This document shows positions 2,215 through 43,570 of a stretch of 64,000 bases of DNA, one piece after another. Position numbers and translations under genes: made by a program. Within the stretch, counting starts at the first letter, position 1. Each line of letters begins with the position of its first letter. The notes beneath the pieces are model-generated. The model worked only from the letters and a program-made list of their open reading frames with translations. It did no database searches and was not told the DNA's origin. The stretch is from contig JACREZ010000019.1 in NCBI GenBank assembly GCA_016212665.1, forward strand, positions 1 to 64,000, read 5' to 3'. The stretch comes from Ignavibacteriota bacterium. GTDB lineage: Bacteria; Bacteroidota; Ignavibacteria; UBA10030; SZUA-254.

Positions 2215-2252
2215 CCTGTCCGCTATCATGAACATGGTGGATAGCGGACAGG
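2215..2252 (+). terminator. 13-bp perfect hairpin after the tetraheme gene
   Basis: CCTGTCCGCTATC pairs perfectly with GATAGCGGACAGG around a 12-base loop and is followed by TTCTTTAT. It lies in the 62-base gap before the next cytochrome gene. It could act as a partial terminator or RNA-stabilising element making the first two genes more abundant than the large cytochromes. An ATG inside the loop (2228) is in frame with the next gene but is an unlikely start. Confidence 0.7.
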
Positions 2253-2263
2253 TTCTTTATGAT

Positions 2264-6494: not shown

Positions 6495-7326
6495 CGGAAA
6501 TGGAAAACAGTTTCTCCGTTTCATCCGTCTTAATCGTGTTCTCCACATCGTCATGATTGTGAGTTTTATGAGTCTTGCACTGACCGGAATGACGTTGAAG
6601 TTTTCTTATACAACGTGGGCGGTGATTCTCGCTCATTTGTTTGGCGGGTTTGAATCGGCGGGGTACGTGCATCGGTTAGCGGCGGTGTTCATGTTCGGAA
6701 TTTTTGTTGCGCACATTGTTGAATTGTTCAAGATGAAAAAGCGGGAAGATAAAACGTGGCGCAAACTTATATTTGGTCCCGACTCAATGATGTTCAACCG
6801 GAATGATTTAAAGGAGTTCATCGGCTCCATCAAATGGTTTCTTGGAAAAGGTCCTCGACCGAAATTCGGACGATGGACGTATTGGGAAAAGTTCGATTAC
6901 TTTGCTGTGTTCTGGGGAATATTTGTCATCGGTTCAACCGGGCTGACACTCTGGTTCCCTGAAATCTTTACGCTCGTTCTCCCCGGGTATTTTCTGAATA
7001 TTGCAACCATCATTCATAGTGATGAAGCGTTGCTGGCAGTCGGATTTATTTTCACCGTGCATTTCTTCAACACGCATCTCCGTCCCGAAAAATTTCCGAT
7101 GGACTTGGTTGTGTTTACCGGAAGAATGGACCTGGAAGAATTCAAACATGACAAGCCGGCTGAGTACGAAGCATTAGTCAAGAGTGGTGAGTTGGAAAAT
7201 TATTTAGTCGAACCGTATCAGCCAATCGTTATCAAGGCTGTTCGCGTGTTTGGTTATACAGCATTGACGGTCGGATTCAGTATCGTCATCTGGATTATTT
7301 ACGCTATGCTATTTGCATATAGGTGA
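6487..7326 (+). CDS. Membrane cytochrome b subunit
   Basis: A 279-residue polytopic protein overlapping the 19-heme gene by eight bases. It has about five membrane helices. Histidines at [28 protein letters not shown] and TVHFFNTH are in positions expected for two b hemes, as in formate dehydrogenase gamma and thiosulfate reductase cytochrome b. It aligns by eye with the C-terminal half of the 2264-4480 protein ([22 protein letters not shown] compares with TKPKLGRFSYIEKAEYWALIWG). Probable role: exchange electrons between menaquinone and the 19-heme partner. Quinone type and direction are inference. It ends the first operon; a heptad-repeat hairpin follows. Confidence 0.88.
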
Positions 7327-11505: not shown

Positions 11506-13002
11506 ATGAAACGAATCTTCCCAAGTTCTTTTTACAACCTCATGACACTCATCGGCACTATGGTTGCCGGCGTGAGCGTTGGACTTATCATCTTCATGAT
11601 TGTTCTTGAATCCGTAGCGGAAAATCCAAACCCGTATATGGGTATTTTTACGTTTGTTCTCCTGCCGTTCATTCTCATGATTGGTCTTGGAATGATTTTC
11701 TTCGGAATCTTCCGTGAACATCGGAGAGCACGCTTAGGAAAGCCGCATGGATTGCATTTACCGCAGATAGATTTGAACAACCCCCGACATCGAACAGCAT
11801 TTACATGGGTTTCCATCGGAACGATTCTTATGCTTTCCGTGATTGGGTTTACCAGTTTTCAAGCGTACGAGCACACGGAATCAGATGAGTTTTGCGGCGA
11901 AACATGTCATACAGTCATGGAGCCGGAATACACAGCATATCAATTTTCACCACACGCAAAAGTTGGATGCGTTCAATGTCATATCGGTTCCGGCGCGAGT
12001 TATTTTGTGAAGTCGAAATTGTCCGGCAGTTATCAGGTTTATTCGGTCTTGTTCGATAAATATCCGAAACCGATTCCGACACCGATTGAAAACCTTCGCC
12101 CGGCTCAGCAGACCTGCGAGCAGTGCCATTGGCCCAAACATTTCTTCAGCGAGAAACAGCATGAGAATACATATTTCCTTTCCGATGAACAGAATACGAA
12201 GTGGACATTGAATTATTTGATGAAAATTGGCGGCGGCAATGTGGAAGCAGGACCGACCTCCGGTATCCACTGGCACATGAATATCTCTCATGAAGTTACG
12301 TACGCTGCGCTCGACCGTGAACGGCTCATCATTCCATGGATTCGTTCGCGAACACCGGATGGAAAAGAGACGATTTACCGGAGTACGGAAATAACCGTCA
12401 GTGATGATTCGATTGCAAAATCGTTTCAACGAAAAATGGATTGCATCGATTGCCACAATCGTCCGACGCATATTTATCATCCGCCAGCTCGTTCAGTCAA
12501 TCATATAATGGCGCTCGGATGGATTGACCCGAAAATTCCGAATGTGAAAAGTATTGCGGTGAAAGCGTTAGAACTTCCCTACACGACAAAACAAATCGGA
12601 CTTGATAGCATCAAACTATACATCAATGATTATTACAAAGAAAATTATCCCGAAGTTGTCGTTTCGATGAAACCACAGATTGACAGTACGATTGTTCAGG
12701 TGCAGAAAATTTTCAGCAGAAATTACTTCCCGGAAATGAAAGTGAACTGGAAGAACTTTAACAATAATATTGGGCATCTCTACTATCCGGGGTGCTTCCG
12801 TTGTCACGACGGAAAACATGTTACACCGGAAGGAAAAGTGTTATCAAAAGATTGCAACACGTGTCATACAATTCTCGCACAAAAGTTCGAGCAGGACACA
12901 TTGCGTATATCATTAGGCGGAGTGGACTACCAGCATCCTGTTGACATCGGTGATGCGTGGAAGGAAATGAATTGCTCTGACTGTCATAATAGTAATCAAT
13001 AA
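11506..13002 (+). CDS. NapC/NirT-type multiheme cytochrome c (7 heme sites)
   Basis: A 498-residue membrane-bound cytochrome. Three hydrophobic segments (about 12-32, 45-65, 103-122) come before the heme domain. The first heme site, FCGETCHTVMEPEY, has the CX3CH spacing seen in some NapC/NirT relatives and sits just after the third helix, as expected for a quinol-oxidising member. Six CXXCH sites follow: CVQCH, CEQCH, CIDCH, CFRCH, CNTCH, CSDCH. It opens an operon with Rieske, cytochrome b and 11-heme genes, spacing 11 bases to the Rieske ATG. Likely role: a second quinol-to-heme route, or a structural partner of the Rieske/cytochrome-b complex. Confidence 0.88.
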   Translation: MKRIFPSSFYNLMTLIGTMVAGVSVGLIIFMIVLESVAENPNPYMGIFTFVLLPFILMIGLGMIFFGIFREHRRARLGKPHGLHLPQIDLNNPRHRTAFTWVSIGTILMLSVIGFTSFQAYEHTESDEFCGETCHTVMEPEYTAYQFSPHAKVGCVQCHIGSGASYFVKSKLSGSYQVYSVLFDKYPKPIPTPIENLRPAQQTCEQCHWPKHFFSEKQHENTYFLSDEQNTKWTLNYLMKIGGGNVEAGPTSGIHWHMNISHEVTYAALDRERLIIPWIRSRTPDGKETIYRSTEITVSDDSIAKSFQRKMDCIDCHNRPTHIYHPPARSVNHIMALGWIDPKIPNVKSIAVKALELPYTTKQIGLDSIKLYINDYYKENYPEVVVSMKPQIDSTIVQVQKIFSRNYFPEMKVNWKNFNNNIGHLYYPGCFRCHDGKHVTPEGKVLSKDCNTCHTILAQKFEQDTLRISLGGVDYQHPVDIGDAWKEMNCSDCHNSNQ

Positions 13003-13013
13003 GGAATAACAGT

Positions 13014-13466
13014 ATGCAAGAACAACCTCAACCGACTGAACAGCCGCGGCGCAGTTTTCTCAAGTACGTCCTTACGGGCGGACTTGTCGCGTGGGCTGGT
13101 TCGGTTTTATATCCCATCTTAGCGTATCTCAAACCACCGATACAACCGGAAGTGGAAGTATCGAGTGTGAAAGCAGGAAAACTTGCCGACATACCGAAAG
13201 AGAGCGGTACGATTATCAAATTCGGGTCGAAGCCGGTTATTCTCGTTCGCTCGGCGAAAGATGAACTCCGCGCCTTCGATGCGACATGCACGCACCTCGA
13301 TTGTACCGTTCAGTACAACAAAGATAAAGGAATGTTATGGTGCGCGTGTCATAACGGAACGTATGATTTGACAGGAAGGAATGTCGGCGGTCCGCCACCG
13401 CGCCCGCTTGAAGAATACCGCGTCATTACTCAAGGAGAGGAGGTACTCATTTCGAAGAAATCATGA
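13014..13466 (+). CDS. Rieske [2Fe-2S] protein
   Basis: A 150-residue protein with both Rieske cluster motifs, CTHLDC (about residues 93-98) and CACHNGTYD (about 112-120), giving the two Cys and two His ligands. The N terminus [20 protein letters not shown] is a twin-arginine-type anchor, as in most bacterial Rieske subunits folded before export. The next gene, cytochrome b, overlaps the stop by four bases. It moves electrons from quinol at cytochrome b to a c-type heme. No cytochrome c1 is present, so the acceptor must be one of the multiheme neighbours. Confidence 0.96.
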
Positions 13467-14536
13467 AACAGAAACTATCAAAACTTTATTCGTGGATTGA
13501 TGAACGGGTTGAACTTCAAGACCTCGTTCAGTTTATGGGAAAGAAATATGTTCCTATCCACAGCCACTCTGTGTGGTATTACTTTGGCGGTGTGTCCCTC
13601 TTCCTGTTTATTATTCAAGTAATAACAGGAATCATGCTGTTACTTTATTACAAAGGAAGCGAAGAACTTGCGTTCGAGAGCATTCAGTTCATCATCTCGA
13701 AAGTACAGTTCGGCTGGTTGATTCGTTCGATTCATAGTTGGGCGGCGAACCTGTTCGTCCTTGCCGCGATGATTCACATGTTCAGCGTCTATTTTGAAAA
13801 AGCATACAAGAAGCCGAGAGAAATTACATGGCTCACTGGTATGCTGATGTTCTTTATGGCGCTCGGATTTGGTTTCAGCGGGTACTTGCTTCCATGGAAT
13901 GAACTCGCTTTCTTCGCGACGAAAGTCGGAACGGACATTGCCGGAGTTGTTCCTGTCATCGGCGAGCCGATACTCATGTTTCTCCGCGCAGGTGAAGATG
14001 TAACCGGCGCAACGCTTTCGCGGTTCTTCGGATTTCATGTCGCAGTCTTCCCGGGAATCTTCACCGTGTTACTTGGCATTCATCTCGTTCTTGTTCAGCG
14101 ACAGGGAATGAGCGAACCGGAAGGATTCGACCCGAACGTTAAAGAAAAGACGATGCCATTTTTCCCGAATTTTTTACTGAGAGATTTATTACTCTGGTTG
14201 ATTGTCCTGAACATTCTTGCAATTCTTGCAGTCTTCTTTCCGTGGGAATTGGGAAAGAAAGCGGATGCATTTGCACCTGCACCTGCCGGCATCAAACCCG
14301 AATGGTATTTCATGTTCATGTTTCAAACATTAAAATTTATTCCGGCGAAAGTGTTATTCATAGATGGAGAAATCCTCGGCATTCTTGCATTCGGATTTGC
14401 AGGAGCGTTGTGGATGTTCGTTCCGTTCTGGGATAGAAAGAGCGCACAAGGCGAAAAGAACAAACTTGTCAATTACTTGGGAATTTTTGCTGTCATCTAT
14501 ATTATCATCTTAACAACTTTGGGATGGTTCCTATGA
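13463..14536 (+). CDS. Cytochrome b of a Rieske/cytochrome-b complex
   Basis: A 357-residue integral membrane subunit. [19 protein letters not shown] and [23 protein letters not shown] supply the two histidine pairs for the bL and bH hemes, and [11 protein letters not shown] carries the PEWY quinol-oxidation motif. The bH-bL region and the subunit-IV-like C-terminal part are in one chain, with about eight helices. It overlaps the Rieske gene and the 11-heme gene by four bases each, so the three are translationally coupled. This is the quinol-oxidising core of an energy-conserving complex. It is shorter than mitochondrial cytochrome b, with only a short C-terminal part. Confidence 0.95.
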
Positions 14537-16014
14537 AAAAGAAATTATTGATTATCCTTACGAGCGTGGCGGCTATGTTCTTCCTTACCGGAGTGGTATT
14601 TGCAGACGACCAATGCGTCGTGTGTCATCAAGGACTTGGCGATAAACCATCATCGTTGTATAAGAAGGACATTCACTTTGCAAAAGGAATTTCCTGCGCC
14701 GATTGTCATGGCGGAAATAAAAACAAAGATGAAATGGAAGCGGCAATGGATGTGAGCGCCGGATTCAAAGGCGTACCGAAGGGTGATGAAATATCCAAAA
14801 CGTGTGCAACGTGTCACTCCGATGCAGAGAAGATGAAATCGTTCGGTTCGTCGCTCCCGACCAATCAAATGGAACATCTCCAGACAAGTGTTCACGGAAA
14901 ACTTTCTCTTTCCGGGAAAGAACATATTGCTCAGTGCGTGACGTGTCACAGTGTGCATGATATTGTTTCTGTGAAGAATCCTGCTTCGCCGGTGTATCCG
15001 TTGAATGCCACAAAAACATGTTCAAAATGTCACTCGGATGCTTCGTTTATGCGGACATACAATCCGTCGCTTCCGGTTGACCAATTGGAAAAATATCAAA
15101 CAAGTTTACACGGAACATTAAACGCCAAAGGCGACCCGAAAGCCGCCGAGTGTGCGAGTTGTCATGGAAGTCATAACATTCGTTCGGCGAAGGATGCGAA
15201 GTCCTCAGTCTACGCTGCAAACTTACCGGCAACATGCTCGAACTGTCACAGCAATGCTGAGTACATGAAAGAGTATAATATTCCGAGCGACCAATTCGAT
15301 AAGTATGCTCGAAGCGTTCACGGAAAAGCATTGTTAGAAAAGCACGACATCGCCGCGCCTGCTTGTAACGATTGTCATGGTAATCACGGTGCGATGCCTC
15401 CGGGTGTTGAATCCATCTCCAAGGTCTGCGGAACGTGTCATGCACTCAACGCCGATTTATTCTCTGCCAGTCCGCATAAGAAGGCGTTCGACGAGAGGCA
15501 ACTTCCTGAGTGTGAAACATGCCACAGTAATCATGAAATTGTGAATGCTACCAATCAATTGCTTGGAGTGACATCGGAAGCGGTATGCAGTAAATGTCAT
15601 TCGGAACAAGAAAATCAAAAAGGATTTATCGTTGCGAAAGCGATGCGAAGTGCAATTGACAGTTTGGAAATGAATGAAGCACACGCCGCCGCCCTGGTAG
15701 ATGAAGCCGAACAAAAAGGGATGGAAGTCTCGGATGCAAAATTCAAGTTGCGGGAAGCACACCAAGCACGGTTGCAATCGCGCACCGCGATTCACTCGTT
15801 CAGCGAAGAAAAATTCCGTGAAGTTGTTGGAAAAGGATTGAATGTTGCATCTCTGGTTGCAACCGAAGGACAGGATGCAATTGATGAATTCTATTTCCGT
15901 CGGTGGGGATTGGGTGTTGCAACGCTCATTATCACCATTGTTTGTATTGCGTTGTGGCTGACTATCAAACGTATCGAACAACGGCAGAGTATTAATAAAT
16001 CAAAATCGAAATAA
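14533..16014 (+). CDS. 11-heme membrane-anchored cytochrome c
   Basis: A 493-residue exported cytochrome. I place the start at ATG 14533, which forms ATGA with the cytochrome b stop and opens the signal peptide [19 protein letters not shown]. Eleven CXXCH sites follow to about residue 357. The [20 protein letters not shown] and [20 protein letters not shown] blocks show internal duplication. After a helical heme-free segment, one membrane helix ([17 protein letters not shown]) anchors the C terminus on the periplasmic side. Its coupling to Rieske and cytochrome b suggests that it replaces cytochrome c1 as acceptor. That role is inference. Confidence 0.88.
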
Positions 16015-16028
16015 CAGAAACTTAACTT

Positions 16029-18260
16029 ATGAATCCCGGACAAATCATCATTATCATAGCGTTCTTATCGTCACTCGGCGCGGCATTATTCTATTTTGTT
16101 GAAGGCAAAAAGAATGCACGCCAGCAACCAGGAAAGACAATTGCTGAGCGGCTTTTTCTTGTCTCGGCAGGTGCAGGCATAGTCGCATCACTTTTGATGT
16201 TGTACTTACTTATCACAAATCAATTTCAGTACGAGTACGTGTCAAAGTACAGTTCGCTCGACCAACCGTTCATCTATCTTTTCTCAGCCTTATGGGCAGG
16301 ACAGGAAGGGACGTTTTTGTTTTGGGCGATGCTTACCGGCATCATGGGCTTCGTCTTCATGAAATCAAAAACCAACGGGGACAACATCGCACTTGGTGTG
16401 GTGAATGTCTTTACCGCGTTTTTGTATTTACTGATGATTGTGAAAAGTCCGTTTCAAACGGTATCGCAGGTTCCGCCGGACGGACAAGGAATGAATCCGC
16501 TCTTGATGAATCCGTGGATGGCTGTTCATCCTCCGATTCTGTTCGTTGGATATGCGGCAACACTCTTCCCGTTTGCGCTTGTTCTCTCTGCGCTCGTCCG
16601 ACGTTCGTATGATTCATGGAACGAACGCGGGTTTGCCTGGACATTATTCGCAACGGTCATGCTCGGTGCAGGAATTATCATCGGTGGTTTCTGGGCGTAC
16701 GAAGTATTGGGTTGGGGCGGATATTGGGGATGGGACCCGGTAGAAAATTCTTCTCTCGTCCCATGGATAACTTTGCTTGCGCTCATTCACGGACTGTTAC
16801 TGTTCAAGGCAAAAGGAGCAATGCAACGGACGAACATGTTTCTGGCAATCATTACGTTTCTGCTCGTTCTTTATGCAACGTTTCTCACACGAAGCGGAGT
16901 GTTGGCAGATTTCTCCGTCCACTCATTTGTAGATTTGGGAATCAACAATTACCTCGTTGGCATCATGGTTCTTGGTTGCACGGCGGGCTTCGGTTTGCTG
17001 GCGACACGGTTTCGCGAAATCCAATCGCCGAAACTTAATTTTTCGAGTTTGAATCGGGAAGTGACGTTACTGTTGAGTCTGTATGTGTTGCTTGCAATGG
17101 CGGCGTTCACATTTGCGGGCATGTCATCACCGATTTTTACCGGTCTCGTCGGCAAAGCATCGCAGGTTGATATTACATTCTACAACAAAGTGAACTTACC
17201 TGTCGCAATTGCGATGGCGTTACTTCTCGGCATCACCCCGTTTCTCGGATGGTCGGAAGAAAAAAAATCTTCGTTACTGAAACGTTACTCGATGCCACTC
17301 ATTCTCACTGGCTTATCCTGTGTGATTGCGTATGTTGCCGGAGTTACTTCCGCAGTCTTGCTCACATTCGTTGGCGCATCGGCATTTGCACTCATCAGCA
17401 ATTCAATTATAGCATTTCGACAGTATCGTTCCGGTTGGCTTACACTTGGTGGACCGATTACGCACATCGGTACTGCATTGATGTTGATTGGGATAATCGG
17501 CTCAGGAAATTATGATGAGACAAAACAAATCATGCTCAAACAAGGAGAGCCGAAGGAAGTGTTCGGATACTCTGTTCTCTTCAAAGATTTTATTGAAGAC
17601 CCGAATAAGAATGAAAAGCCGATAGTCAGTCTCGAAGTGAAGGACGGGAACAATACGTTTGCGGCATTCCCGAAATTATATTTCAGCAATTACAGTCAAT
17701 CCATTATGCGGGAGCCGGACATCAAAGTATTTCCATTGAAAGATTTGTACCTGTCGCCGTTGGAAATGAAAGCACCGCACGAACGTGACGAACATCCGAC
17801 GTTGGAAATCGGGAAAGGTGAAACGAAAGAGTTTAACGGGTATCAGATTCAATTTGTGAGTTTTCAGACCGGTGAACATGGACAGCCCGGTTCGATGCAG
17901 GTGGGTGCCTTGTTGAAGGTTACTGCTCAAGGAACAGAACACGAAATCGCCCCGGCAATTGTTATTGATGCGCAGGGGCAACAATCATACGCGCCTGCCG
18001 AAATGCCGCCACTTCACAACCCGACCAAAGGAATACAAAATCCCGTCATCACGTTGGTGGACATGAGTGTTGAGCAGAAACGAATTCTCCTTTCATTTCA
18101 TGGACTTCAAGGAGACGACCATGCGGCGCAGGGATATGAATTACTCCTCGAGGCCAGCATCAAGCCGTTGATGATGGTTGTGTGGACCGGTGTTGTGTTA
18201 ATCATCGCCGGAACTATTATCGCCTTTAAGAGAAGACTGTCGAACAAAGAAAGTAGTTAA
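16029..18260 (+). CDS. ccmF: Cytochrome c-type biogenesis protein CcmF
   Basis: A 743-residue polytopic membrane protein of the heme-handling CcmF/CcsA family, which attaches heme to CXXCH sites of exported apocytochromes. The tryptophan-rich WWD signature is clear (WGGYWGWDPVENSSLVPW, about residues 235-252), with conserved histidines in VHPPILFVGYA and LIHGLLLF. A large periplasmic domain lies at about 510-700 before the last helix. It starts 15 bases after the 11-heme gene. Heme attachment for the many CXXCH sites nearby requires such a factor. Other Ccm components are not in the window. Confidence 0.94.
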   Translation: MNPGQIIIIIAFLSSLGAALFYFVEGKKNARQQPGKTIAERLFLVSAGAGIVASLLMLYLLITNQFQYEYVSKYSSLDQPFIYLFSALWAGQEGTFLFWAMLTGIMGFVFMKSKTNGDNIALGVVNVFTAFLYLLMIVKSPFQTVSQVPPDGQGMNPLLMNPWMAVHPPILFVGYAATLFPFALVLSALVRRSYDSWNERGFAWTLFATVMLGAGIIIGGFWAYEVLGWGGYWGWDPVENSSLVPWITLLALIHGLLLFKAKGAMQRTNMFLAIITFLLVLYATFLTRSGVLADFSVHSFVDLGINNYLVGIMVLGCTAGFGLLATRFREIQSPKLNFSSLNREVTLLLSLYVLLAMAAFTFAGMSSPIFTGLVGKASQVDITFYNKVNLPVAIAMALLLGITPFLGWSEEKKSSLLKRYSMPLILTGLSCVIAYVAGVTSAVLLTFVGASAFALISNSIIAFRQYRSGWLTLGGPITHIGTALMLIGIIGSGNYDETKQIMLKQGEPKEVFGYSVLFKDFIEDPNKNEKPIVSLEVKDGNNTFAAFPKLYFSNYSQSIMREPDIKVFPLKDLYLSPLEMKAPHERDEHPTLEIGKGETKEFNGYQIQFVSFQTGEHGQPGSMQVGALLKVTAQGTEHEIAPAIVIDAQGQQSYAPAEMPPLHNPTKGIQNPVITLVDMSVEQKRILLSFHGLQGDDHAAQGYELLLEASIKPLMMVVWTGVVLIIAGTIIAFKRRLSNKESS

Positions 18261-21413: not shown

Positions 21414-21812
21414 ATGACTACAATGACGAATCATAAAAACGGTCAGAATATCCTCATTGTGGAAGATGAACAACTTGTTCGTTGGTCGCTTACTCATGCG
21501 CTTTCAAAAGCCGGTTTTAATATTACAACCGTTGCTTCCGGTGATGCTGTGATGGAACAACTTCATTCTGCTCACTACGATTTGGTTATTACTGATGTTG
21601 ACCTTCCCAAACTCAACGGATTTCAAGTCGCTTCTCAGGTCAAACATTATTGTTCAGAGATTCCTGTCATACTGACAAGCGCTGTGGGTGTAGGAGACGC
21701 AAGAATGAAAATGCAACAGGAAGGTATTGATGCTTTTATTGAAAAACCGTTCGATTTGAATGAAGTGACGGAGATTGTTACACGGCTTTTATCCTGCAAA
21801 AATGAAGCATAG
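21414..21812 (+). CDS. Single-domain response regulator (receiver)
   Basis: A receiver-only protein of about 133 residues: ILIVEDEQLVRWSL, phosphoacceptor Asp in LVITDVDLPKLNGFQVA, and lysine in FIEKPFDLNEV. No output domain follows. It resembles the receiver of the sigma-54 activator just upstream (both have LVRWSL or LIRWSL), suggesting a duplication. I choose ATG 21414 because earlier in-frame starts overlap or crowd the sigma-54-like promoter; ATG 21381 or 21423 are alternatives. It may act as a phosphate sink or adaptor for the neighbouring kinase. The next gene begins within its last codons. Confidence 0.88.
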   Translation: MTTMTNHKNGQNILIVEDEQLVRWSLTHALSKAGFNITTVASGDAVMEQLHSAHYDLVITDVDLPKLNGFQVASQVKHYCSEIPVILTSAVGVGDARMKMQQEGIDAFIEKPFDLNEVTEIVTRLLSCKNEA

Positions 21813-23187
21813 CGGTACTATCAAAATCGAAAAAAAATCAGTGGGTGATATGCCCCAGAAATTCAAATCTGATAATTCTGCCATTAATAATACAGATTTT
21901 CAGGTGGAAAAGGGAAAAAAGAGACGGTTTAGTGTGGCATTGTATATGCCATTACAGACAGTACTTATGCAATCAGTCATACGTTCTCATTTTCAACCTG
22001 TTCTTTTTATCCTGCTTTGCTGGGTTCTCTTTCTTGGCGACAGCCCGACAGCAGATATTATTGTGCTCTTTCCCCCTTCTTCTGAAACAACTTCCTATGA
22101 CCAAGCCAAATTACTATTGGTTTCTGCATCGAAAGAGACAGGAAGTGAAATGAAGGTCTCAACACTATGGCAAAGGGAAGAACGGTTTTTGATTGGAACA
22201 AAAGCCGAGAAGGAAAATTTCCCGAAAGAATTTTACAAATTGTTTGATTCAAAAATGACGCTTCAGTCGTTGTCATTCACTTATAAATATTATGAAGGAT
22301 ACTCAAAGCCGGAAACGTTGAAGTATGAACATGCGGATACGATGACAGTCAAATCATTATGGAAACGAAAAGAGTTCGGTGATTGGGTGAAAGCGCTTCA
22401 AACAAAACAAGCGTTGGAAGTGATTTTGAATTTACGCGGATGGAGAGATAGCGTGTACACCGCGGTGTATGATGACCCGGTTGCTGATAACCGGATGTTA
22501 TATAAACTGCATGTCCAACTCGTTCCGGGAGAAAACAGAATTTATTTTTCATCAACCGGGGAGAAGAAAAGCACTGCTGAGTTTTTTACAACATATCTGA
22601 ACGAGTCAAAACCGACGACAGACCGTTCTGTGTTATTTCACAACTCAACACTCGAAGAAAGTTGCACAAGTTGTCACGAGGGATTACCCAGCGCCGATAG
22701 CGGTGCGACGATGAATGCCGATTGCAATGTTTGTCATAAAGAAGTTGTCGGCGCATCGTATGTACATTCTCCGGTTGAGATGAAAGAATGTGCATCGTGT
22801 CATTCGTGGTCGGCGGAGAAGAAAGCGGTGGTGCTTGAATCAGGAATTCCGGAAACATGTTTCGCTTGCCACGATGAACAGAAAAATCTGGTTGAGAATG
22901 CAAAAGTTCAACATCCTGTTGCAAGTGAATGTGGAACGTGCCACTCGCCGCACGGAACCGAACAACGACATCAGATAAAAGAGAAAGTGTACACTCTCTG
23001 TCTTGGGTGTCACGAGAATAAGAAGCAAAACCATCCGGTCGGTCGCCACCCGATGCAGTATATCAGGAATGAAGAAACTGGTGAAGAATTTTCATGTGTA
23101 ACCTGTCATAACCCGCATGGTTCGGACAATCAGAAGATGATGAAATTCCCGGGTGAAACTTTAGACGTTTGCGCTCAATGTCATTAA
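21802..23187 (+). CDS. Octaheme exported cytochrome c (doubled CXXCH type)
   Basis: A protein of up to 462 residues with a membrane helix (SHFQPVLFILLCWVLFLGD), a heme-free domain of about 200 residues unlike anything I recognise, and eight CXXCH sites in the C-terminal 170 residues (CTSCH, CNVCH, CASCH, CFACH, CGTCH, CLGCH, CVTCH, CAQCH). The last motif is the very end of the protein. The start is unsure: ATG 21802 overlaps the receiver gene; 21850, 21946 and 21967 are alternatives, the last giving the most ordinary signal peptide. It begins the conduit operon and overlaps the next gene by ten bases. Probably periplasmic or inner-membrane anchored. Confidence 0.8.
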   Translation: MKHSGTIKIEKKSVGDMPQKFKSDNSAINNTDFQVEKGKKRRFSVALYMPLQTVLMQSVIRSHFQPVLFILLCWVLFLGDSPTADIIVLFPPSSETTSYDQAKLLLVSASKETGSEMKVSTLWQREERFLIGTKAEKENFPKEFYKLFDSKMTLQSLSFTYKYYEGYSKPETLKYEHADTMTVKSLWKRKEFGDWVKALQTKQALEVILNLRGWRDSVYTAVYDDPVADNRMLYKLHVQLVPGENRIYFSSTGEKKSTAEFFTTYLNESKPTTDRSVLFHNSTLEESCTSCHEGLPSADSGATMNADCNVCHKEVVGASYVHSPVEMKECASCHSWSAEKKAVVLESGIPETCFACHDEQKNLVENAKVQHPVASECGTCHSPHGTEQRHQIKEKVYTLCLGCHENKKQNHPVGRHPMQYIRNEETGEEFSCVTCHNPHGSDNQKMMKFPGETLDVCAQCH

Positions 23188-25047: not shown

Positions 25048-25070
25048 TTTCTCATGCGCCTCGTGAGAAA
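25048..25070 (+). promoter_or_regulatory. TTTCTCA/TGAGAAA inverted repeat upstream of tetraheme gene
   Basis: TTTCTCA, nine bases, TGAGAAA lies just after the propeller stop and 55 bases before the cytochrome ATG. A similar TTTCTCA-N12-TGAGAAA occurs at 60170-60195 before another gene. Hairpin or operator; not strong evidence for either. Confidence 0.35.
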
Positions 25071-25125
25071 GGTGGATTTTCTAAACAACTATGAGGCAAC
25101 AACAATATCCACAAGGATCATATAT

Positions 25126-26016
25126 ATGAAACACTTAACGTTAGCAATGATCATGTTATTAGTTCTTACCCTGGTCGCATTATCACAGCCAGGTGGTAAA
25201 CAACCCCTACCGAACTTTGTAGGCAATCCTGAAACAACAGCCACCAATATCTTTGGAAAGGGCTGGGGACTTGGTAAATTCACAGGCGGCGTACAAGGCG
25301 TTCGCTCTGCGATGTTACATGGACCGCACGATTTCACACCGGACTCCGGGAAAGTATTTGAACGAGACAGTCTTGGATTAGACACACTTGGAAATACAAT
25401 TTGGGATACAGTGTATGGCGGTGGTACGCGTAATAAACGTCTCTGCAGTTTTTGCCACACAATCCACGTTTCGAAAGATGCAAATCCTCTCGTGTTGTGG
25501 AACCGTACTTCACAAGCAGGAAAAACATTCGGAAAATATGAAAACCCGAGTTCTATGGATGCGGAAGTGTATGACCCCGGAACAACAGCCGCAGGGTTCA
25601 AAGATAACTTCTCCTCATACTGTTTAAGTTGCCACGATGGTAGCGTTGGTATTTTCTCACCGACAGCATATCAAGGCGGCGGGACAACGGGCGATGTTTC
25701 TCACGTTCCTCATGGCGCAACTATCGGCGCGAGCGGTACATGGACAGATATGGCTCACACGCATCCGGTCAATTTCGACTACAATGCAGTGCAAGCAGTC
25801 GTTCCGGAAGAATTATATCCGGCAGTTGACCCTGTGTCAGCAGTATGGAAAGGGTACAGCGGCACGAATGGTAGTGGCGGAAATTATACAACCGTTCGCT
25901 TGTTCAACGGAACAATGCAATGTTCAAGTTGCCATAACCCACACATGAGCAGCGGCATCGGAACCGTCATCACCAGTGATTACGGCAGACGTTGCGTGGC
26001 TTGCCACAAGAAGTAA
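25126..26016 (+). CDS. Tetraheme exported cytochrome c
   Basis: A 296-residue protein from ATG 25126, preceded by AAGGA. Signal peptide HLTLAMIMLLVLTLVALS. Four widely spaced CXXCH sites: CSFCHTIHV (about residue 106), CLSCHDGS (about 166), CSSCHNPH (about 267) and CVACHKK at the C terminus. Sparse hemes in a Gly/Thr-rich chain suggest a surface or extracellular cytochrome more than a compact periplasmic one. The first two heme regions (FCHTxHV...LWNR...YCLSCHDGS) match those of the 28919-30820 protein, so the two arose by duplication and diverged. A strong hairpin follows the gene. Confidence 0.86.
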   Translation: MKHLTLAMIMLLVLTLVALSQPGGKQPLPNFVGNPETTATNIFGKGWGLGKFTGGVQGVRSAMLHGPHDFTPDSGKVFERDSLGLDTLGNTIWDTVYGGGTRNKRLCSFCHTIHVSKDANPLVLWNRTSQAGKTFGKYENPSSMDAEVYDPGTTAAGFKDNFSSYCLSCHDGSVGIFSPTAYQGGGTTGDVSHVPHGATIGASGTWTDMAHTHPVNFDYNAVQAVVPEELYPAVDPVSAVWKGYSGTNGSGGNYTTVRLFNGTMQCSSCHNPHMSSGIGTVITSDYGRRCVACHKK

Positions 26017-26105: not shown

Positions 26106-27782
26106 TTGAACGAGCCTAGGGAATTGAAAAAAGTTCTTTCTATCGTCTTCTTGATAGCCGCGTTCTACCTGTGTAGCGACGCGCAAATCAGTTCGTTCAG
26201 AGGTGAGTTACGCTACGAGCAAAACTATCATGACTACCGCTCCGGCGGTACACTGACAAAGTTCGTCAGCAGAAGTCCGAGAGTGAACCTGCAATTCCGG
26301 GGAAATTTGCTTTCACCAAAGATTCTTACCTATTCATTATTCACATCGCTGTACGGAAATTTTTCAACCAGTAGTAACGAGTTCTTCAATTACTACGGTG
26401 AACAATTTTCATGGAACAGATATAATCTCACCATGAATGTTATTCCGACATCTCCCGTGAAATTAAATCTTGCCTTTCGAGATAACGACTATGTGATAAA
26501 AACCGAATCTGACCGGTTGATTGACAGGTTAGGAAGCAGGTCGCAGGAACAGCGTGCGGAATTATCCGTTCAGCAAGTTCCATGGCTTCCTTCGATGTCG
26601 CTCAGTTACGTGCGAAGTCGTTCGTTCGCTACGGTGGGAAATGAATATGAAATTGTGAACCAGACGCTTTCGTTTACCGCTTCAAGCGCTTCCGATACGA
26701 CAGGGTTATACAATCTTTCTGTGGTAACGAATACCTTGCGTGAGGATTTTAGTAACGCCGCAGACCGGTTCATCGCTGTTTCATTTTCCGCATCACGAGC
26801 GTTAGCACAGCAACATCATGTCAGTCTCACGACGGAATACAACAAATATGCAGGCTTCAGCCTGATGCAGAGTGCACTTTCGTACGGAGGCGTTTTGACC
26901 GATAAAATCCGGATTGCAACAAATTTGGTAGGGAATAACTCGATGAGTTCGTTCTCGCAAGGTCTTTCAGTGGGACTTTCTCAAACTATTGGTTACAATA
27001 TCAATGCAAACTTTCAGAGTTCTGTCGGCGCGAGCGGGTTTCTCGGACATTCGAAAAGTATTGTTCCAGGGTTTGAACGAAGTGATGCGTATAGAAGCGC
27101 GGGACTTTTTGGAAATCTCCAACATCGCCGGGTCGTTGGAGGTTTTACGATCGCGAATGGGTTATCTGCCGGGAAAAATATCCAATTTCAGGTTGCACAG
27201 TTTTCGAGTTGGAACACACAATTTTCAAATAGCATTTCCCGGAACATCGGTTCATTTTCCGCGAGTGGATATTACAATTTCACATTTACCCGAGTCATCA
27301 ACATTTCGGAATACACCATCGTTGGGAACACGGCAGGAATTATTCTGCGTGGGACTTTGCCGAATAATATTCAATCACAATCGGATGTTCGATACCGTGA
27401 AGACCGTTATCCCGGGAATGAATCTTCATTCCGTAGCCACCGAAACATTATCGTTACCCAGCGGATGAACGGTGCATTCAATATTCTGATACCATTTACC
27501 CTGAGTGTGTCAGGAAATGCTAATTGGTTTTTTACGGGCAATCTTGGTCGCACCTACGGCTGGACGTTTAATTTTTCCAGTTCTTCATTTTTCATCAGAG
27601 GTTTGATGGTTTCTTATGTCTATTCAAGAAACTTCGACCAATATTATCTTCGGGAAATTGCAGACCATACCGGTTCACTCTCGTTTAATTGGAGAGCGTT
27701 GTCATTCAGTTCCCGATTGCGTTATGCGACATTTCCGGTTCACCTGAGACAGGTTCAGTTTATTGTAAGCAGACCATTCTGA
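26106..27782 (+). CDS. Outer-membrane beta-barrel, probable conduit porin
   Basis: A protein of about 558 residues with a signal peptide (LKKVLSIVFLIAAFYLCSDA) and then almost only amphipathic beta strands ending in aromatic residues (PRVNLQFRGNLL, ILTYSLFTSLYGNF, ISEYTIVGNTAGIILRG, and so on). It ends in phenylalanine after VQFIVSRP, the classic terminal strand of an outer-membrane barrel. The start is TTG 26106 or TTG 26124; no ATG is suitable. It lacks the N-terminal CXXC of MtrB, so it would be a porin of another type. Multiheme cytochromes on both sides make it the likely sheath of a trans-outer-membrane electron conduit. Function is inferred from context. Confidence 0.8.
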   Translation: MNEPRELKKVLSIVFLIAAFYLCSDAQISSFRGELRYEQNYHDYRSGGTLTKFVSRSPRVNLQFRGNLLSPKILTYSLFTSLYGNFSTSSNEFFNYYGEQFSWNRYNLTMNVIPTSPVKLNLAFRDNDYVIKTESDRLIDRLGSRSQEQRAELSVQQVPWLPSMSLSYVRSRSFATVGNEYEIVNQTLSFTASSASDTTGLYNLSVVTNTLREDFSNAADRFIAVSFSASRALAQQHHVSLTTEYNKYAGFSLMQSALSYGGVLTDKIRIATNLVGNNSMSSFSQGLSVGLSQTIGYNINANFQSSVGASGFLGHSKSIVPGFERSDAYRSAGLFGNLQHRRVVGGFTIANGLSAGKNIQFQVAQFSSWNTQFSNSISRNIGSFSASGYYNFTFTRVINISEYTIVGNTAGIILRGTLPNNIQSQSDVRYREDRYPGNESSFRSHRNIIVTQRMNGAFNILIPFTLSVSGNANWFFTGNLGRTYGWTFNFSSSSFFIRGLMVSYVYSRNFDQYYLREIADHTGSLSFNWRALSFSSRLRYATFPVHLRQVQFIVSRPF

Positions 27783-27929: not shown

Positions 27930-28922
27930 ATGATGAAAACAATATTGACATATGGCTGTTTGATTTTATTCCTATCGGGTGGATTGGATGCGCAGTTGGA
28001 TAGCGCAGGGAAAGTGTGGCCCTCACCGCCTGATAGAGCAAGAATCAAACACGTGCTGACAATTTCCTCGCTCGAAAGTTTTGAATCGAAAAGAGATTTT
28101 TTTTCCGGAGTTTTCACATTTCTCTTCGGGGGTGAGCAAACATCGAACTGGTTAGTTCAGCCGGTAGGAATTGCGGTTTCTTCTTCCGGGAAAATTTATG
28201 TAGCAGACCCGGGCGCAAGCGGAATTCATATCATTGACCAAAAAGAAAAAGAGTATGACTTCGTTTATGAAACAGATGAAGGAAGTTTTCATTCTCCGGT
28301 CGGGTGTGCTGTTAGTGATGATGGCATCCTCTTCATTTCCGATTCTGAACGCGGGGATATTCTTGCTCTGGATGATGACTATGATGTTGAGTTTCAAATC
28401 AAAGAGCATCTTGTGCGACCGACAGGTATTCAGATTCATGGTAACCGATTGTATGTAACGGATACAGGTCAACACAAAATTATTGTGTTCACTCTCGATG
28501 GAGAATATGTTGCGGAATTCGGTCAGCGCGGTGATGCGCTCGGTGATTTTAATTTTCCTGTTCAGTTAGCAACGCGCGACAGTTTATTTATTCTTGATGC
28601 TGTGAATTACCGGGTTCAGAAATTTAGTTTTTCGGGAAAGTTTAGTTCGATGTTTGGTCGGCAGGGGAATGTTGCCGGTCGGTTTGCAAGCCCGAAAGCA
28701 ATTGCATTGGACTCGGACGGAAACATGTATATCACCGATGCGTTGATGGATAATTTCCAGATATTCAACAGCAAGAATGAATTACTGCTCGTTGTCGGAA
28801 AAAAAGGAACGGGCGACGGAGAGTTTATGACGCCGAACGGAATTGCGATTGACAGGGAGGATAAGATTTACGTGATTGATTCACTCAACAGACGAATACA
28901 AATTTTTCAGTATCTCAAATGA
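27930..28922 (+). CDS. NHL-repeat beta-propeller, exported
   Basis: A 330-residue paralog of the 24010 lipoprotein. The signal (TILTYGCLILFLSGGLDA) lacks a convincing lipobox cysteine at the cleavage site, so this copy may be soluble or differently attached. After KVWPSPPDRARIKHV come about six NHL blades (QPVGIAVSSSGKIYVAD, ASPKAIALDSDGNMYITD, TPNGIAIDREDKIYVID). Its stop overlaps the ATG of the 12-heme cytochrome (ATGA), as the other propeller is followed by the tetraheme gene. The propeller-cytochrome pair is thus present twice around the barrel. Likely a scaffold; partner unknown. Confidence 0.87.
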   Translation: MMKTILTYGCLILFLSGGLDAQLDSAGKVWPSPPDRARIKHVLTISSLESFESKRDFFSGVFTFLFGGEQTSNWLVQPVGIAVSSSGKIYVADPGASGIHIIDQKEKEYDFVYETDEGSFHSPVGCAVSDDGILFISDSERGDILALDDDYDVEFQIKEHLVRPTGIQIHGNRLYVTDTGQHKIIVFTLDGEYVAEFGQRGDALGDFNFPVQLATRDSLFILDAVNYRVQKFSFSGKFSSMFGRQGNVAGRFASPKAIALDSDGNMYITDALMDNFQIFNSKNELLLVVGKKGTGDGEFMTPNGIAIDREDKIYVIDSLNRRIQIFQYLK

Positions 28923-30820
28923 AACACTTTCTTGTAACAATTTGTGGAGCGTTGTTGTTGTATGCCTGCGGTATTCAGCAACTTTATGCTCAGACTCAGG
29001 CACAATCAAAAATGCTCGGAACGATGCACGATCTGACACCAACGGGTCCCGGAACAGTAAAGGCGGCGACGGAAAAAGATTTGTGCGTGTTCTGTCATAC
29101 GCCGCATGTGCCGAAGCAATATGCCGCCGCACAACTTTGGAATCATAAACTCAGCGAAGCGGAATACACACTCTACACAAGTGACTACTTGAAAAGTCTC
29201 AGTTACGCGACACCGAATCAACCGAATCCGCGCTCGAAACTTTGTCTCTCCTGTCATGATGGAACGATTGCCATTGGCGCTGTGTATAGCAACGAAGGTG
29301 TTACAAATATTCTCCTTCAGGATGAAGTTACGGTCATGCCCGCGCATGTTCCGGGAAATCTCGGAACCTCGCTCGCCAACGACCACCCGGTCGGTTATGT
29401 GTATGACAATACAAAAGACCACGAACTTGTTGCGCGAACATTTCCGTGGGAAACTCCTGTCAAACTTGACCCCGATGCATCGAACGGAACCGTTGAGTGC
29501 ATCACCTGCCACGAGCCGCATGATAATACGTTCACAAAATTTCTTCGCATGGATAATACCGATGCCGCATTGTGTACATTCTGTCACGACAAAGTTGGCT
29601 GGAACGAATCGGCTCATAAATTATCACAACAAAAATATAATCCGCCTGACAGGGAAGGAACGACGGTTGGGGAATGGTCTTGTCGCTCGTGCCATAAGTC
29701 GCACGGTGGAACGGGAACTCCGTATCTGCTTTCGTTAGTGGAAGAGCAGACATGTTTTACTTCAAGTTGCCACGGAAGTACATTGAAGGGGGATGAAACG
29801 AAGAATATTCAAAGTGAGTATGAAAAACAATATTCACATCCAACAACCGCAGTAACAAAAAAACATTTGAACCCGGACAATGATAAAAGTTTGGGATTAT
29901 CCGGCAGACACGCAGAGTGTCAGGATTGCCACAATTCACATAGAGCGAAAAAGGGATTGCATGTGTTGAGAAGCAATCAGGTTTCAGAAGTCTTGACCGG
30001 TGTTCGCGGCGTCATGCCTCAGATTGCTGAAGAATGGACTCAGCCGACAACCTTCACCGAAATGAACCCTGCTACGACAGAGAATCAAATTTGCTTTAAG
30101 TGTCATTCGTATAACGCATTCGGAATCGCGGTGAACGGAGTAACGGAAATTATCGGACCATCGGGAGAGAACATCACCGACCAGGCGATGGAGTTTAACC
30201 CGAGAAACCGTTCCGCACATCCCGTTCAGGTTCCGTTGCAGGAACAGATTGGTTCGCTCGCTCCGAGAGCGTTGACATTTTCCCAACTGACAAACGATTG
30301 GAATATGGCGGGAACACAAACGATGTATTGTTCCGATTGTCACGGCAACGACCAACCGACTTCGTCGAGCGTACCGCAAGGTCCGCACGGTTCGAACAGC
30401 AGGTTTATGTTGACAGGGAATGCAAAGTATTGGCCCCAAAACATGTCCGGTCAGTTGTGGTCGTTGTATGATGTGAAAAAAGATATGAACAATTGGCAGA
30501 ATGATTTGTACTGTGTGAATTGTCATCCCATGGTAAGTGGTGGTACTTTTTTGAATAATGTTCATGAAGCGAATGCACACATTACCGCGGATGTAAAATG
30601 TGTAACGTGCCATGTTACAGTACCACATGGCTCGAAGCGTTCACGGCTCATCGGGTACGAAACCGATGTGAAGCCGTACAATTATCAGGGAACGGGGACG
30701 TTTGATAAACTTGTCATTGCTGGATTTAAGAAGGCGGCGGGGTCAAATCTCTACAATGTTAATAATTGCTCAATGAACGGCGTGTGTCACGGAGAGCAAA
30801 TCAATGATTATGAGAAGTAG
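28919..30820 (+). CDS. Large exported multiheme cytochrome c (up to 12 hemes)
   Basis: A 633-residue protein coupled to the propeller gene. Signal MKHFLVTICGALLLYACG; LLYAC could be a lipobox, otherwise cleavage after LYA. Ten CXXCH sites plus two with longer spacing, CFTSSCHG (CX4CH) and CSMNGVCHG (CX5CH), each with the following His in place. The spacing of hemes is wide and the chain is rich in surface-type loops, as in terminal extracellular reductases. First heme regions match the 25126-26016 cytochrome. It is the last gene of the operon and may be the outward-facing partner of the barrel. Whether the two long-spaced sites carry heme needs direct evidence. Confidence 0.87.
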   Translation: MKHFLVTICGALLLYACGIQQLYAQTQAQSKMLGTMHDLTPTGPGTVKAATEKDLCVFCHTPHVPKQYAAAQLWNHKLSEAEYTLYTSDYLKSLSYATPNQPNPRSKLCLSCHDGTIAIGAVYSNEGVTNILLQDEVTVMPAHVPGNLGTSLANDHPVGYVYDNTKDHELVARTFPWETPVKLDPDASNGTVECITCHEPHDNTFTKFLRMDNTDAALCTFCHDKVGWNESAHKLSQQKYNPPDREGTTVGEWSCRSCHKSHGGTGTPYLLSLVEEQTCFTSSCHGSTLKGDETKNIQSEYEKQYSHPTTAVTKKHLNPDNDKSLGLSGRHAECQDCHNSHRAKKGLHVLRSNQVSEVLTGVRGVMPQIAEEWTQPTTFTEMNPATTENQICFKCHSYNAFGIAVNGVTEIIGPSGENITDQAMEFNPRNRSAHPVQVPLQEQIGSLAPRALTFSQLTNDWNMAGTQTMYCSDCHGNDQPTSSSVPQGPHGSNSRFMLTGNAKYWPQNMSGQLWSLYDVKKDMNNWQNDLYCVNCHPMVSGGTFLNNVHEANAHITADVKCVTCHVTVPHGSKRSRLIGYETDVKPYNYQGTGTFDKLVIAGFKKAAGSNLYNVNNCSMNGVCHGEQINDYEK

Positions 30821-31879: not shown

Positions 31880-34603
31880 ATGAAACAACTTTTACCAATC
31901 ATTGTTACACTTTTATTTCATTCTATTTTCTGTGTGAATATACACGCTGCTGACATCATTGCCAAAATAAAAATTGTTGGTGTCTCTGTCGGAATGAAGA
32001 ACGCACACCCCAATCTCTATCAATCAACAACAACGGGGTTGCCGAACTTCGGGCGTGGAAGTCATGTCTATCTCGAAGCGAAAGCGCAGCATGGAACGAG
32101 TATTATAAAAAATATCCCCGTGGCAAGCGCAACGTGGGCAATTCTCTCAGCGCCCGATGGTTCTTCCGCAACAATTATTCCGACCGATTCTGCTACAGGC
32201 TTGTATGGTCTTTCGGCGTTATTCATCAGCGATGTTATTGGCTCATACGAAGTGCGTCTTGATGTAATCACAGATAGCGGTAATGCCTCAACAACGATGT
32301 GGCTTAATGCCGCGAATTATGTCGGCGCAGGAAAAATTATTGATGACACTCCGAACTTTCCGGAATGTTCTATGTGTCATTCCGGTCAGTTGACAAATCA
32401 TTATGACTCATGGAAAACTACCGGTCATGCCTCAATCTTCAGAAAAGGAATTGATGGGCGCGAGGGAGCCCACTACGACAGCAACTGCGTTCGTTGTCAT
32501 ACAACAGGCTATGATAATTCGGGTACAGCAATGAATGACGGATTCGATGACCGTGCTACTTCGTTAGGTTGGATTTTTCCGACGATACTACAAGAAGGAA
32601 ATTGGGATACGCTCAAAGCAAATTATCCAGAACTTGCCAAGGTTGCCAATATTCAATGCGAAAGTTGTCACGGACCGGGGAGCGGACACGGCGGGGATAT
32701 CAGCAGGAATAAAATTGTAAAATCATTTTCTGCCGATGTGTGTGGGATGTGTCATGATGCGCCGGGCGATTATAAGAAAACGCTGGAATGGAAAACCTCG
32801 GCACATGCGAAAGCAGTTGGTGAGCCTGATGATATTGAAGGAATGAATAAACCCGCCTGTGCTATTTGCCACACGACGCAAGGTTTTGTGCTGGAACGAA
32901 TCGGTGGAAAACCAACAGCCGCTCCGTATGTGGATGCTCACGGTATTAACTGCATTGCTTGTCATGACCCGCACAGCAAACAATTCCCGCATCAAGTTCG
33001 GAAACCGCTTGCGGAATTATGCACAGAGTGTCACATGACGAATCTCAGTGCCGGCGAACTGCATCATTCAACACAGGGTCCGATGATTGCCGGTGTGCTT
33101 GGCGTTCCATATACGGGAATGCCGGATTCCGGCAGCGGAAAGTGGGGCGGTTGGCAACTTAGCGGGTATCGGTATGCAAATTCTTCACACTCCGGTTTGG
33201 AGGAAAATTGCATCACGTGTCACATGGCAGATTCCCATGCAGATTCGCTCGTTGGAAAACTTGGAGGGCATACGTACAGAGTTTCATTTGAAGATGAGAA
33301 CGAAACGGAAATTATTAATCCGAAAGGTTGCGAGGATTGTCATGGTGTCGTTTCGGTGGAATTTGTTGAGCGAAGCCAGAACAAGGTAAAATCACTTCTG
33401 GAACAATTACGCCTTCTTTTACCGCATAAGGCAACGGGCGATACAACGCAACCATTACCGCCGGGTGATATTTCTTTGAGTCAACTTCAAAAAGCGGCAT
33501 CATACAATTATTACTTTGTGTTGAATGACGGAAGTTACGGTGTTCATAACCATACCTACGCGACCGGATTACTTGTATCCTCAATTGAACAACTACAGAT
33601 AGGCGCTGGCGCCGCTCCGATTGTTGCAATCCACGATGTGCCGAACGACCAAGGGAAGATGGTGAACATTCATTGGAACAAATTCCCCGCAGAAGAATTC
33701 AGCATTGATAAGGTCATCAGTTACGGAGTCTGGAGAAAAGACGAGATGGCAAAAACAGGCTTGACTACGTTCAGTTCGTATAAAGAAATGTTCCAAAAAG
33801 GAAAAATCGGTTCCAGTTATTTCATGAACGGAGACGTCTGGACATTTGTCGGTAGTGTTCCTGCGGCAAAGCAACCGGTGTACAGTTTCGACGTTCCGAC
33901 ATTATTCGATTCAACAATATCTCATGGAATGAAATGGACCACATTCTACGTGACCGGTCATTCAACGAATCTCTATGTTGTTTATGCCTCTGCGCCGGAC
34001 AGCGGTTACTCTCTTGATAACCTTGTTCCGACTGTTCCTGTAGGTGTCGGCGCCCGGATGGTAAGCGGCGGAGTGGAATTGCGATGGGAAATTTCTGAAG
34101 AACTGGACTTCAACTATTATGCAGTCTATCGCGGAACGACCCCGAACTTTATCCCCGGCGAGCCAATCGGTGAAGTGACTGATGCAATGTATCAGGACAA
34201 TAATGTTGTTGATGGTCAACGGTATTATTACAAACTTGCTTCGTTCGATTTCTCCGGGAATCAAAGTGCGTACTCAGCCGAGTTGGAAGTGAATGTTCTT
34301 GATGTTTTGGAAAACGGAATACCGGAAACGTTCGCTCTCGGGCAGAACTATCCGAACCCGTTCAATCCGTCAACATCTGTGAAGTATCAGGTTCCTCAAA
34401 CGTCGCACGTTCGACTCATCGTGTATAACACGCTGGGTGTTGAAGTAGCACGTTTGGTGGATGAAACACTTGAGGCAGGATACTACACAATCAGTTGGGA
34501 TGGAAAAGATAATCTTGGTAAGTCGGTCAGCACCGGAATTTATCTCTGCAAGATGGCAGCCGGGACGTTTACCGATGTGAAGAAGATGATATATGTGAAG
34601 TGA
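31880..34603 (+). CDS. Nine-heme cytochrome c with type IX secretion signal
   Basis: A 907-residue exported protein. Signal peptide (PIIVTLLFHSIFCVNIHA), a beta-rich domain to about 155, then nine CXXCH sites between about residues 163 and 490 (CSMCH, CVRCH, CESCH, CGMCH, CAICH, CIACH, CTECH, CITCH, CEDCH). The middle heme region resembles the cytochrome c-554 type (CESCHGPGSGHGG). A heme-free beta domain and an FnIII-like domain (about 715-805) precede the type IX sorting domain: NYPNPFNPST, then LIVYNTLGVEVARLVDE, then GIYLCKMAAGTFTDVKKMIYVK. It should be exported through the outer membrane and fixed to the cell surface with its hemes exposed. A terminator hairpin follows. Confidence 0.93.
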   Translation: MKQLLPIIVTLLFHSIFCVNIHAADIIAKIKIVGVSVGMKNAHPNLYQSTTTGLPNFGRGSHVYLEAKAQHGTSIIKNIPVASATWAILSAPDGSSATIIPTDSATGLYGLSALFISDVIGSYEVRLDVITDSGNASTTMWLNAANYVGAGKIIDDTPNFPECSMCHSGQLTNHYDSWKTTGHASIFRKGIDGREGAHYDSNCVRCHTTGYDNSGTAMNDGFDDRATSLGWIFPTILQEGNWDTLKANYPELAKVANIQCESCHGPGSGHGGDISRNKIVKSFSADVCGMCHDAPGDYKKTLEWKTSAHAKAVGEPDDIEGMNKPACAICHTTQGFVLERIGGKPTAAPYVDAHGINCIACHDPHSKQFPHQVRKPLAELCTECHMTNLSAGELHHSTQGPMIAGVLGVPYTGMPDSGSGKWGGWQLSGYRYANSSHSGLEENCITCHMADSHADSLVGKLGGHTYRVSFEDENETEIINPKGCEDCHGVVSVEFVERSQNKVKSLLEQLRLLLPHKATGDTTQPLPPGDISLSQLQKAASYNYYFVLNDGSYGVHNHTYATGLLVSSIEQLQIGAGAAPIVAIHDVPNDQGKMVNIHWNKFPAEEFSIDKVISYGVWRKDEMAKTGLTTFSSYKEMFQKGKIGSSYFMNGDVWTFVGSVPAAKQPVYSFDVPTLFDSTISHGMKWTTFYVTGHSTNLYVVYASAPDSGYSLDNLVPTVPVGVGARMVSGGVELRWEISEELDFNYYAVYRGTTPNFIPGEPIGEVTDAMYQDNNVVDGQRYYYKLASFDFSGNQSAYSAELEVNVLDVLENGIPETFALGQNYPNPFNPSTSVKYQVPQTSHVRLIVYNTLGVEVARLVDETLEAGYYTISWDGKDNLGKSVSTGIYLCKMAAGTFTDVKKMIYVK

Positions 34604-40939: not shown

Positions 40940-40948
40940 CACAACAAT

Positions 40949-42205: not shown

Positions 42206-42223
42206 ATGAAAAAGGAGAAAAAA

Positions 42224-43540: not shown

Positions 43541-43570
43541 TATTGGTGTATCAATTGGGACAAAATTACT

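Follow-up and report, generated by a model that had tools for sequence, protein, structure and literature searches.

A conserved nine-heme cytochrome with a type IX secretion sorting domain in Ignavibacteria and related phyla, a candidate surface terminal cytochrome

A protein of 907 aa that combines nine CXXCH heme-binding motifs with a C-terminal type A sorting domain of the type IX secretion system (T9SS) is encoded in a contig of an Ignavibacteriota bacterium (JACREZ010000019.1), of which a stretch of 64,000 nucleotides, hereafter the window, was analyzed. Conservation of the tailed form of this nonaheme protein extends to at least 38 bacteria. In the reading that we favor, with a probability of roughly 0.64, it would be an OcwA-class cytochrome at the end of an extracellular electron transfer (EET) chain, delivered to the cell surface by the T9SS and fed through a neighboring block of multiheme and putative outer-membrane genes. 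The features of the window that bear on this reading are listed in Table 1.

Table 1. Features of the window related to the nonaheme protein and its gene neighborhood (positions within the window).
Feature	Position	Strand	Basis
13-heme protein fused to cytochrome b561 (putatively CbcL-like), 19-heme cytochrome, cytochrome b	2228..7326	+	Domain models
NapC/NirT-type six-heme cytochrome (putatively ImcH/CymA-like)	11506..13002	+	Domain models
Rieske protein, cytochrome b and eleven-heme cytochrome; bc-like quinol-oxidizing module	13014..16014	+	Domain models
CcmF/NrfE-type heme lyase	16029..18260	+	Domain models
Eight-heme cytochrome of the block	21802..23187	+	Domain models, block conservation
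Four-heme cytochrome of the block, likely start 25126	25054..26016	+	Pfam, motif count
Putative outer-membrane beta-barrel, 558 aa, ending in ...RPF	26106..27782	+	Block conservation, hydropathy
NHL beta-propeller protein of the block	27930..28922	+	Pfam, block conservation
Ten-heme cytochrome, candidate outer-membrane conduit partner	28919..30820	+	Motif count, Pfam, block conservation
Nine-heme c-type cytochrome with T9SS type A C-terminal sorting domain, 907 aa	31880..34603	+	ATG start, open ORF
Sec-type signal sequence, residues 1-24	31880..31951	+	Inspection; N-terminal helix in model
N-terminal Ig-like beta domain, residues 26-145	31955..32314	+	AlphaFold2 model; conserved among relatives
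Nonaheme module, residues 160-575	32357..33604	+	PF13435 and PF22113; one-to-one heme alignment with OcwA (6i5b); invariant CXXCH
Nine CXXCH motifs, spanning residues 163-488	32366..33343	+	Motif scan
Tandem beta/FnIII-like spacer, heme-free, residues 581-805	33620..34294	+	Model, Foldseek; shared with heme-free T9SS proteins
Low-confidence linker before the sorting domain, residues 806-828	34295..34363	+	Model
T9SS type A sorting domain, residues 829-907	34364..34600	+	TIGR04183 above cut-off; present in 38/38 relatives

The CXXCH motifs begin at residues 163, 203, 260, 288, 327, 358, 381, 444 and 484, and the C terminus matched the sorting-domain model TIGR04183 at 27.7 bits (cut-off 23), which bears out the joint presence of nine heme sites and a C-terminal sorting domain in one chain that the earlier note had read from the letters. 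The Pfam tail model PF18962 reached 20.1 bits, below its cut-off of 27, and FlgD_ig matched with a score of 36.6. A chance origin of the nine sites was rejected on the basis of their conservation in relatives and of residue-shuffled copies of the protein, which held 0.015 motifs on average and one at most (2000 copies).

The N-terminal signal sequence MKQLLPIIVTLLFHSIFCVNIHA was judged by eye to be of the Sec type. The AlphaFold2 model (mean pLDDT 80.6) placed a helix at residues 5-18, followed in order by the Ig-like domain, the heme module, the tandem beta domains, a linker and a beta-sandwich tail; the beta-sandwich spans residues 832-905, with a low-confidence linker ahead of it at 809-828, and the modeled linker as a whole (806-828) is a candidate for the PorU cleavage region. 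Whole-protein Foldseek results were dominated by FnIII domains, thus covering the spacer and being uninformative on the heme core; the tandem beta part matched FnIII arrays and also a PorU structure. The same spacer region is common to three heme-free T9SS proteins of the source genome. An FnIII-like spacer, as the earlier note had proposed, was therefore found for residues 581-805 of this protein but is not a general trait of the family: the last conserved His and the tail are just 33-37 residues apart in 22 of the 38 tailed relatives and 126-279 in the remaining ones.

By sequence comparison, the nonaheme module is composed of a cytochrome c554-like tetraheme part, an NrfA/OcwA-like pentaheme part and a helical bundle; it extends beyond heme 9 to about residue 575 and includes an NrfA/OcwA-type helix with a conserved GxHN. 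In an alignment of 23 relatives, eight CXXCH motifs were invariant and the ninth nearly so; further His residues able to act as distal ligands were likewise invariant, and most of the candidate distal His of the module were conserved. The closest solved relative of the family profile was OcwA (PDB 6i5b, E 7.2e-29), whose nine hemes aligned one-to-one and in order, followed by weaker matches to OmhA, NrfA and MccA; an octaheme nitrite reductase also aligned. OcwA of Thermincola is a nonaheme terminal reductase of the cell surface in which a pentaheme is joined to a c554-like tetraheme; hemes 2 and 5 each have an open site beneath a His-His motif (PMC6703420). Both proteins share heme order, the c554-like and NrfA-like halves, the GxHN helical bundle and the His-His pocket of heme 5 (HH395/396 here, one His being invariant in the family). 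At heme 2, in contrast, the His-His of OcwA is replaced by Asp-Tyr (His-His is found in some relatives), and the protein is therefore called OcwA-like in build rather than an OcwA. It also differs from its Thermincola potens counterpart, which belongs to a Gram-positive host and has no sorting domain, by the added N-terminal Ig domain, FnIII-like spacer and T9SS tail.

PDB 6qvm, which we take to be OmhA, aligned over about 360 positions of the heme region (E 3.5e-23), but this cytochrome type has more hemes, a Gram-positive host and different ends. With the outer-membrane decaheme cytochromes MtrC/OmcA the nonaheme protein shares the proposed cell-surface role and a match to PF22113 (45.5 bits); unlike them, it has nine hemes instead of ten, no lipobox for a lipoprotein anchor, and a T9SS tail. 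The MtrC/OmcA model TIGR03507 had no match on this protein, while 8 of the 38 family members matched it.

The same alignments would also suit a T9SS-secreted enzyme of the NrfA superfamily that reduces, for instance, nitrite, hydroxylamine, a sulfur compound or an organic one, instead of a reductase for metals or electrodes in general. The alignment of the module with OcwA, NrfA, the octaheme nitrite reductase and MccA, the kept heme 5 pocket and the slow nitrite reduction by OcwA itself (PMC6703420) speak for it. However, a CXXCK catalytic heme is absent, the pocket at heme 2 has been lost, and the genes around the nonaheme gene resemble a chain from quinol to the outside and not nitrogen or sulfur genes; such an enzyme is thus considered unlikely, although it is the best placed of the alternatives.

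Upstream of the nonaheme gene, the window contains a block with the order 8-heme / NHL / 4-heme / putative barrel / NHL / 10-heme, its 4-heme / putative barrel / NHL / 10-heme genes lying 1-6 kb away. The first 31 kb also hold a two-component pair and the inner-membrane cytochromes of Table 1; the labels CbcL-like and ImcH-like used there are inferred from domain composition. Nine relatives have the barrel gene and the ten-heme gene together. In two related genomes (G006 and G009) the nonaheme gene comes after the block as in the source genome; in another (G014) a different, seven-heme tailed protein stands in its place, and the complete genome G004 has the block and no nonaheme gene. Conversely, many members of the order and relatives have the nonaheme gene without the 4-heme / barrel / 10-heme block. 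Next to the nonaheme gene of other lineages (L037, L108, L109) stands a CbcL-like gene, mostly together with a 19-heme gene. The profile of the putative barrel found no relative in PDB or Pfam, and its AlphaFold2 prediction, made from a two-row alignment only, had a pLDDT of 29.5; the hydropathy alternation was clear in most members of the barrel family and weak in the copy of the window. Non-strict co-occurrence of block and nonaheme gene, the unconfirmed barrel fold and the Asp-Tyr at heme 2 all count against the favored reading. Porin-cytochrome clusters have been reported in Ignavibacteria, as has the occurrence of these bacteria on anodes (PMC7399161). Those complexes resemble the multiheme / putative barrel / multiheme block adjoining the nonaheme gene; here, however, the nonaheme protein has its own export signal and the barrel matches no known porin model.

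The earlier note had gone further, proposing that T9SS export would itself constitute a second route for EET, without a porin conduit. Five loci from members of the order (L122, L124, L125, L129 and L132), in which no other conduit-like gene was recognized near the nonaheme gene, agree with this idea. Yet the T9SS moves a polypeptide once and carries no lasting current, so that electrons need another way across the outer membrane: a protein exported once carries at most about nine of them, and a steady current requires a membrane-crossing path or a diffusible shuttle. Considering also that a conserved multiheme / putative barrel block lies immediately upstream in the source genome, we regard this part of the proposal as very improbable and do not retain it.

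Regarding the distribution of the family, the heme part was present in 33 of 60 related genomes. A single-protein query of named genomes gave no match; an alignment query recovered relatives in 318 stretches, and the 80 best were retained. TIGR04183 was matched by all 38 complete relatives from phyla with a T9SS, this protein included (Ignavibacteria/Bacteroidota, KSB1, Calditrichota, Kryptonia and Marinimicrobia), and by none of the 34 complete relatives from elsewhere, whose heme module is the same (Verrucomicrobia, Acidobacteria, Chloroflexi, Anaeromyxobacter and others, including five whose records bear just the title "bacterium"), a grouping that was made after the tails had been seen. 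Across the 38 full-length relatives, the tail residues QN.PNPFNP...G.Y...K...K and the nine heme sites were invariant or nearly so. At residue 890 (window 34547-34549) the present protein has a Cys within the sorting domain, where most of the relatives viewed have Tyr or another aromatic residue.

Independently of the tail-based grouping, genomes were searched with the SprA_N model: SprA was detected in 24 of 25 genomes with a tailed relative, the exception being a Melioribacter MAG, and in none of 25 with an untailed one. The T9SS is therefore very probably the surface route for the nonaheme protein in these bacteria. As the tail is kept invariant in diverged relatives and tracks SprA, selection on it is indicated. 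The family tree requires two changes of tail state at most and permits a single one; repeated independent gains of the tail are thus not shown, and its distribution, as read from the sequences, is one of lineage inheritance under selection and not proof of repeated gain.

The source genome encodes SprA, PorU (938 bits) and PorV, the latter adjoining PorU, and contains about 150 sorting-domain matches. The GldM_1st model (PF12081), the single motor model run, had no match there, leaving the T9SS motor of this genome unproven; it may be divergent or of a different kind. Motor apart, and as far as tested, its gene content indicates that the genome is equipped for T9SS export of the nonaheme protein. 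Together with the co-conservation of heme sites and tail and the association of the tail with SprA, this supports the earlier view of a heme-bearing T9SS substrate. The PF18962 score and the missing GldM_1st match count against T9SS delivery to the surface and, along with tailless forms of the module in other phyla, would suit a periplasmic multiheme electron store whose tail is inherited baggage, but invariant tail residues in 38 diverged relatives and the contrast of 24/25 with 0/25 imply selection on the tail and make this the least probable of the readings.

Two observations on the C termini of other relatives were made. In Verrucomicrobia (e.g. L049, L055 and L057) the nonaheme module is followed by a different shared region ending in ...GGWQN.G...FYRV, which may be a further sorting or surface element. 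In one genome (G005, locus L126) the heme part and the tail of the nonaheme gene lie in two separate ORFs (93-965 and 1059-2882), probably through a frameshift or an assembly error.

Under the favored reading of a T9SS-delivered surface cytochrome, the nonaheme protein would be made as a Sec precursor, receive its nine hemes in the periplasm from a Ccm system (a CcmF-type lyase is encoded nearby) and then fold. The folded, heme-loaded protein would cross the outer membrane through the T9SS by means of its type A tail, exiting CTD-first through SprA with PorV, as modeled from F. johnsoniae (PMC10994853). PorU would then cut off the tail, and the protein would be anchored or released. Electrons would pass from menaquinol, via the cytochromes of the inner membrane (CbcL-like, NapC/ImcH-like and bc-like), to the 4-heme / barrel / 10-heme block, and from there to the nonaheme protein, which would hand them to a metal oxide, a humic quinone, another cell or a similar acceptor outside. 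Of this scheme, the heme sites, the tail, their joint conservation, the link with SprA and the gene neighborhood are read from the sequences; export, anchoring, electron path and acceptor belong to the proposal.

Type A cargo of the T9SS known so far consists mostly of proteases, adhesins and hydrolases; gingipain RgpB, RemZ and others share with the nonaheme protein a C-terminal type A domain preceded by a flexible linker and have a Sec signal, which in the nonaheme protein is probable. Among Gram-negative bacteria, the placement of cytochromes on the surface is known mainly from Shewanella and Geobacter, by the lipoprotein and type II routes. Sorting domains have been described in hydrolases of Melioribacter (PMC3534657) and throughout Kryptonia (PMC4737851). 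No paper pairing the T9SS with multiheme cytochromes, or describing such cargo, was found in the open-access papers searched, a scope that does not establish priority. If the reading holds, the conserved tailed family would represent another way of exporting heme-loaded cytochromes to the surface, and Gram-positive cells and cells with a T9SS would both display the same OcwA-class module. Extracellular respiration in the phyla concerned, which are widespread in sediment and groundwater, would become testable with T9SS mutants, and the combination of multiple heme motifs with TIGR04183 offers a genomic marker.

A second T9SS-tailed multiheme gene directly adjoins the nonaheme gene in 9 of the 38 tailed loci (L035, L036, L047, L048, L064, L081, L088, L092 and L108). 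These neighbors include seven-heme proteins in Ignavibacteria, KSB1 and Calditrichota; other neighbors encode eight to nine hemes, some of these being second copies of the nonaheme gene itself. Directly downstream of the nonaheme gene of a KSB1 bacterium (L048:13560-16643), a protein of 1027 aa combines seven CXXCH motifs and a T9SS tail with an EB_dh domain, a heme-b domain of the ethylbenzene-dehydrogenase type; a related protein of 1000 aa in Calditrichota (L047:7556-10558) also carries seven CXXCH motifs and the tail. No tailed seven-heme partner like that of L036 was found in the source genome. Tentatively, and with somewhat less than even odds, the T9SS could be the standard exporter of surface cytochromes in FCB lineages (Ignavibacteria, KSB1/Calditrichota, Kryptonia and Marinimicrobia), delivering several distinct multiheme modules, often in tandem (the nonaheme protein plus a 7-9-heme protein, one with the added EB_dh heme-b domain), as an electron network on the surface that replaces lipoproteins of the MtrC/OmcA type.

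With respect to the remainder of the contig, nearly all paired-CXXCH matches of the 3.9 Mb source genome were located on it, forming a large multiheme respiratory cluster. Within the portion of this cluster covered by the window (1-31000), an acyl-CoA dehydrogenase gene with ETF-like neighbors lies mid-cluster, and downstream of the cluster (40097-44347) a run of soluble proteins is encoded, including a glutamate-rich one of 280 aa and one of 418 aa with a HEAGH motif.
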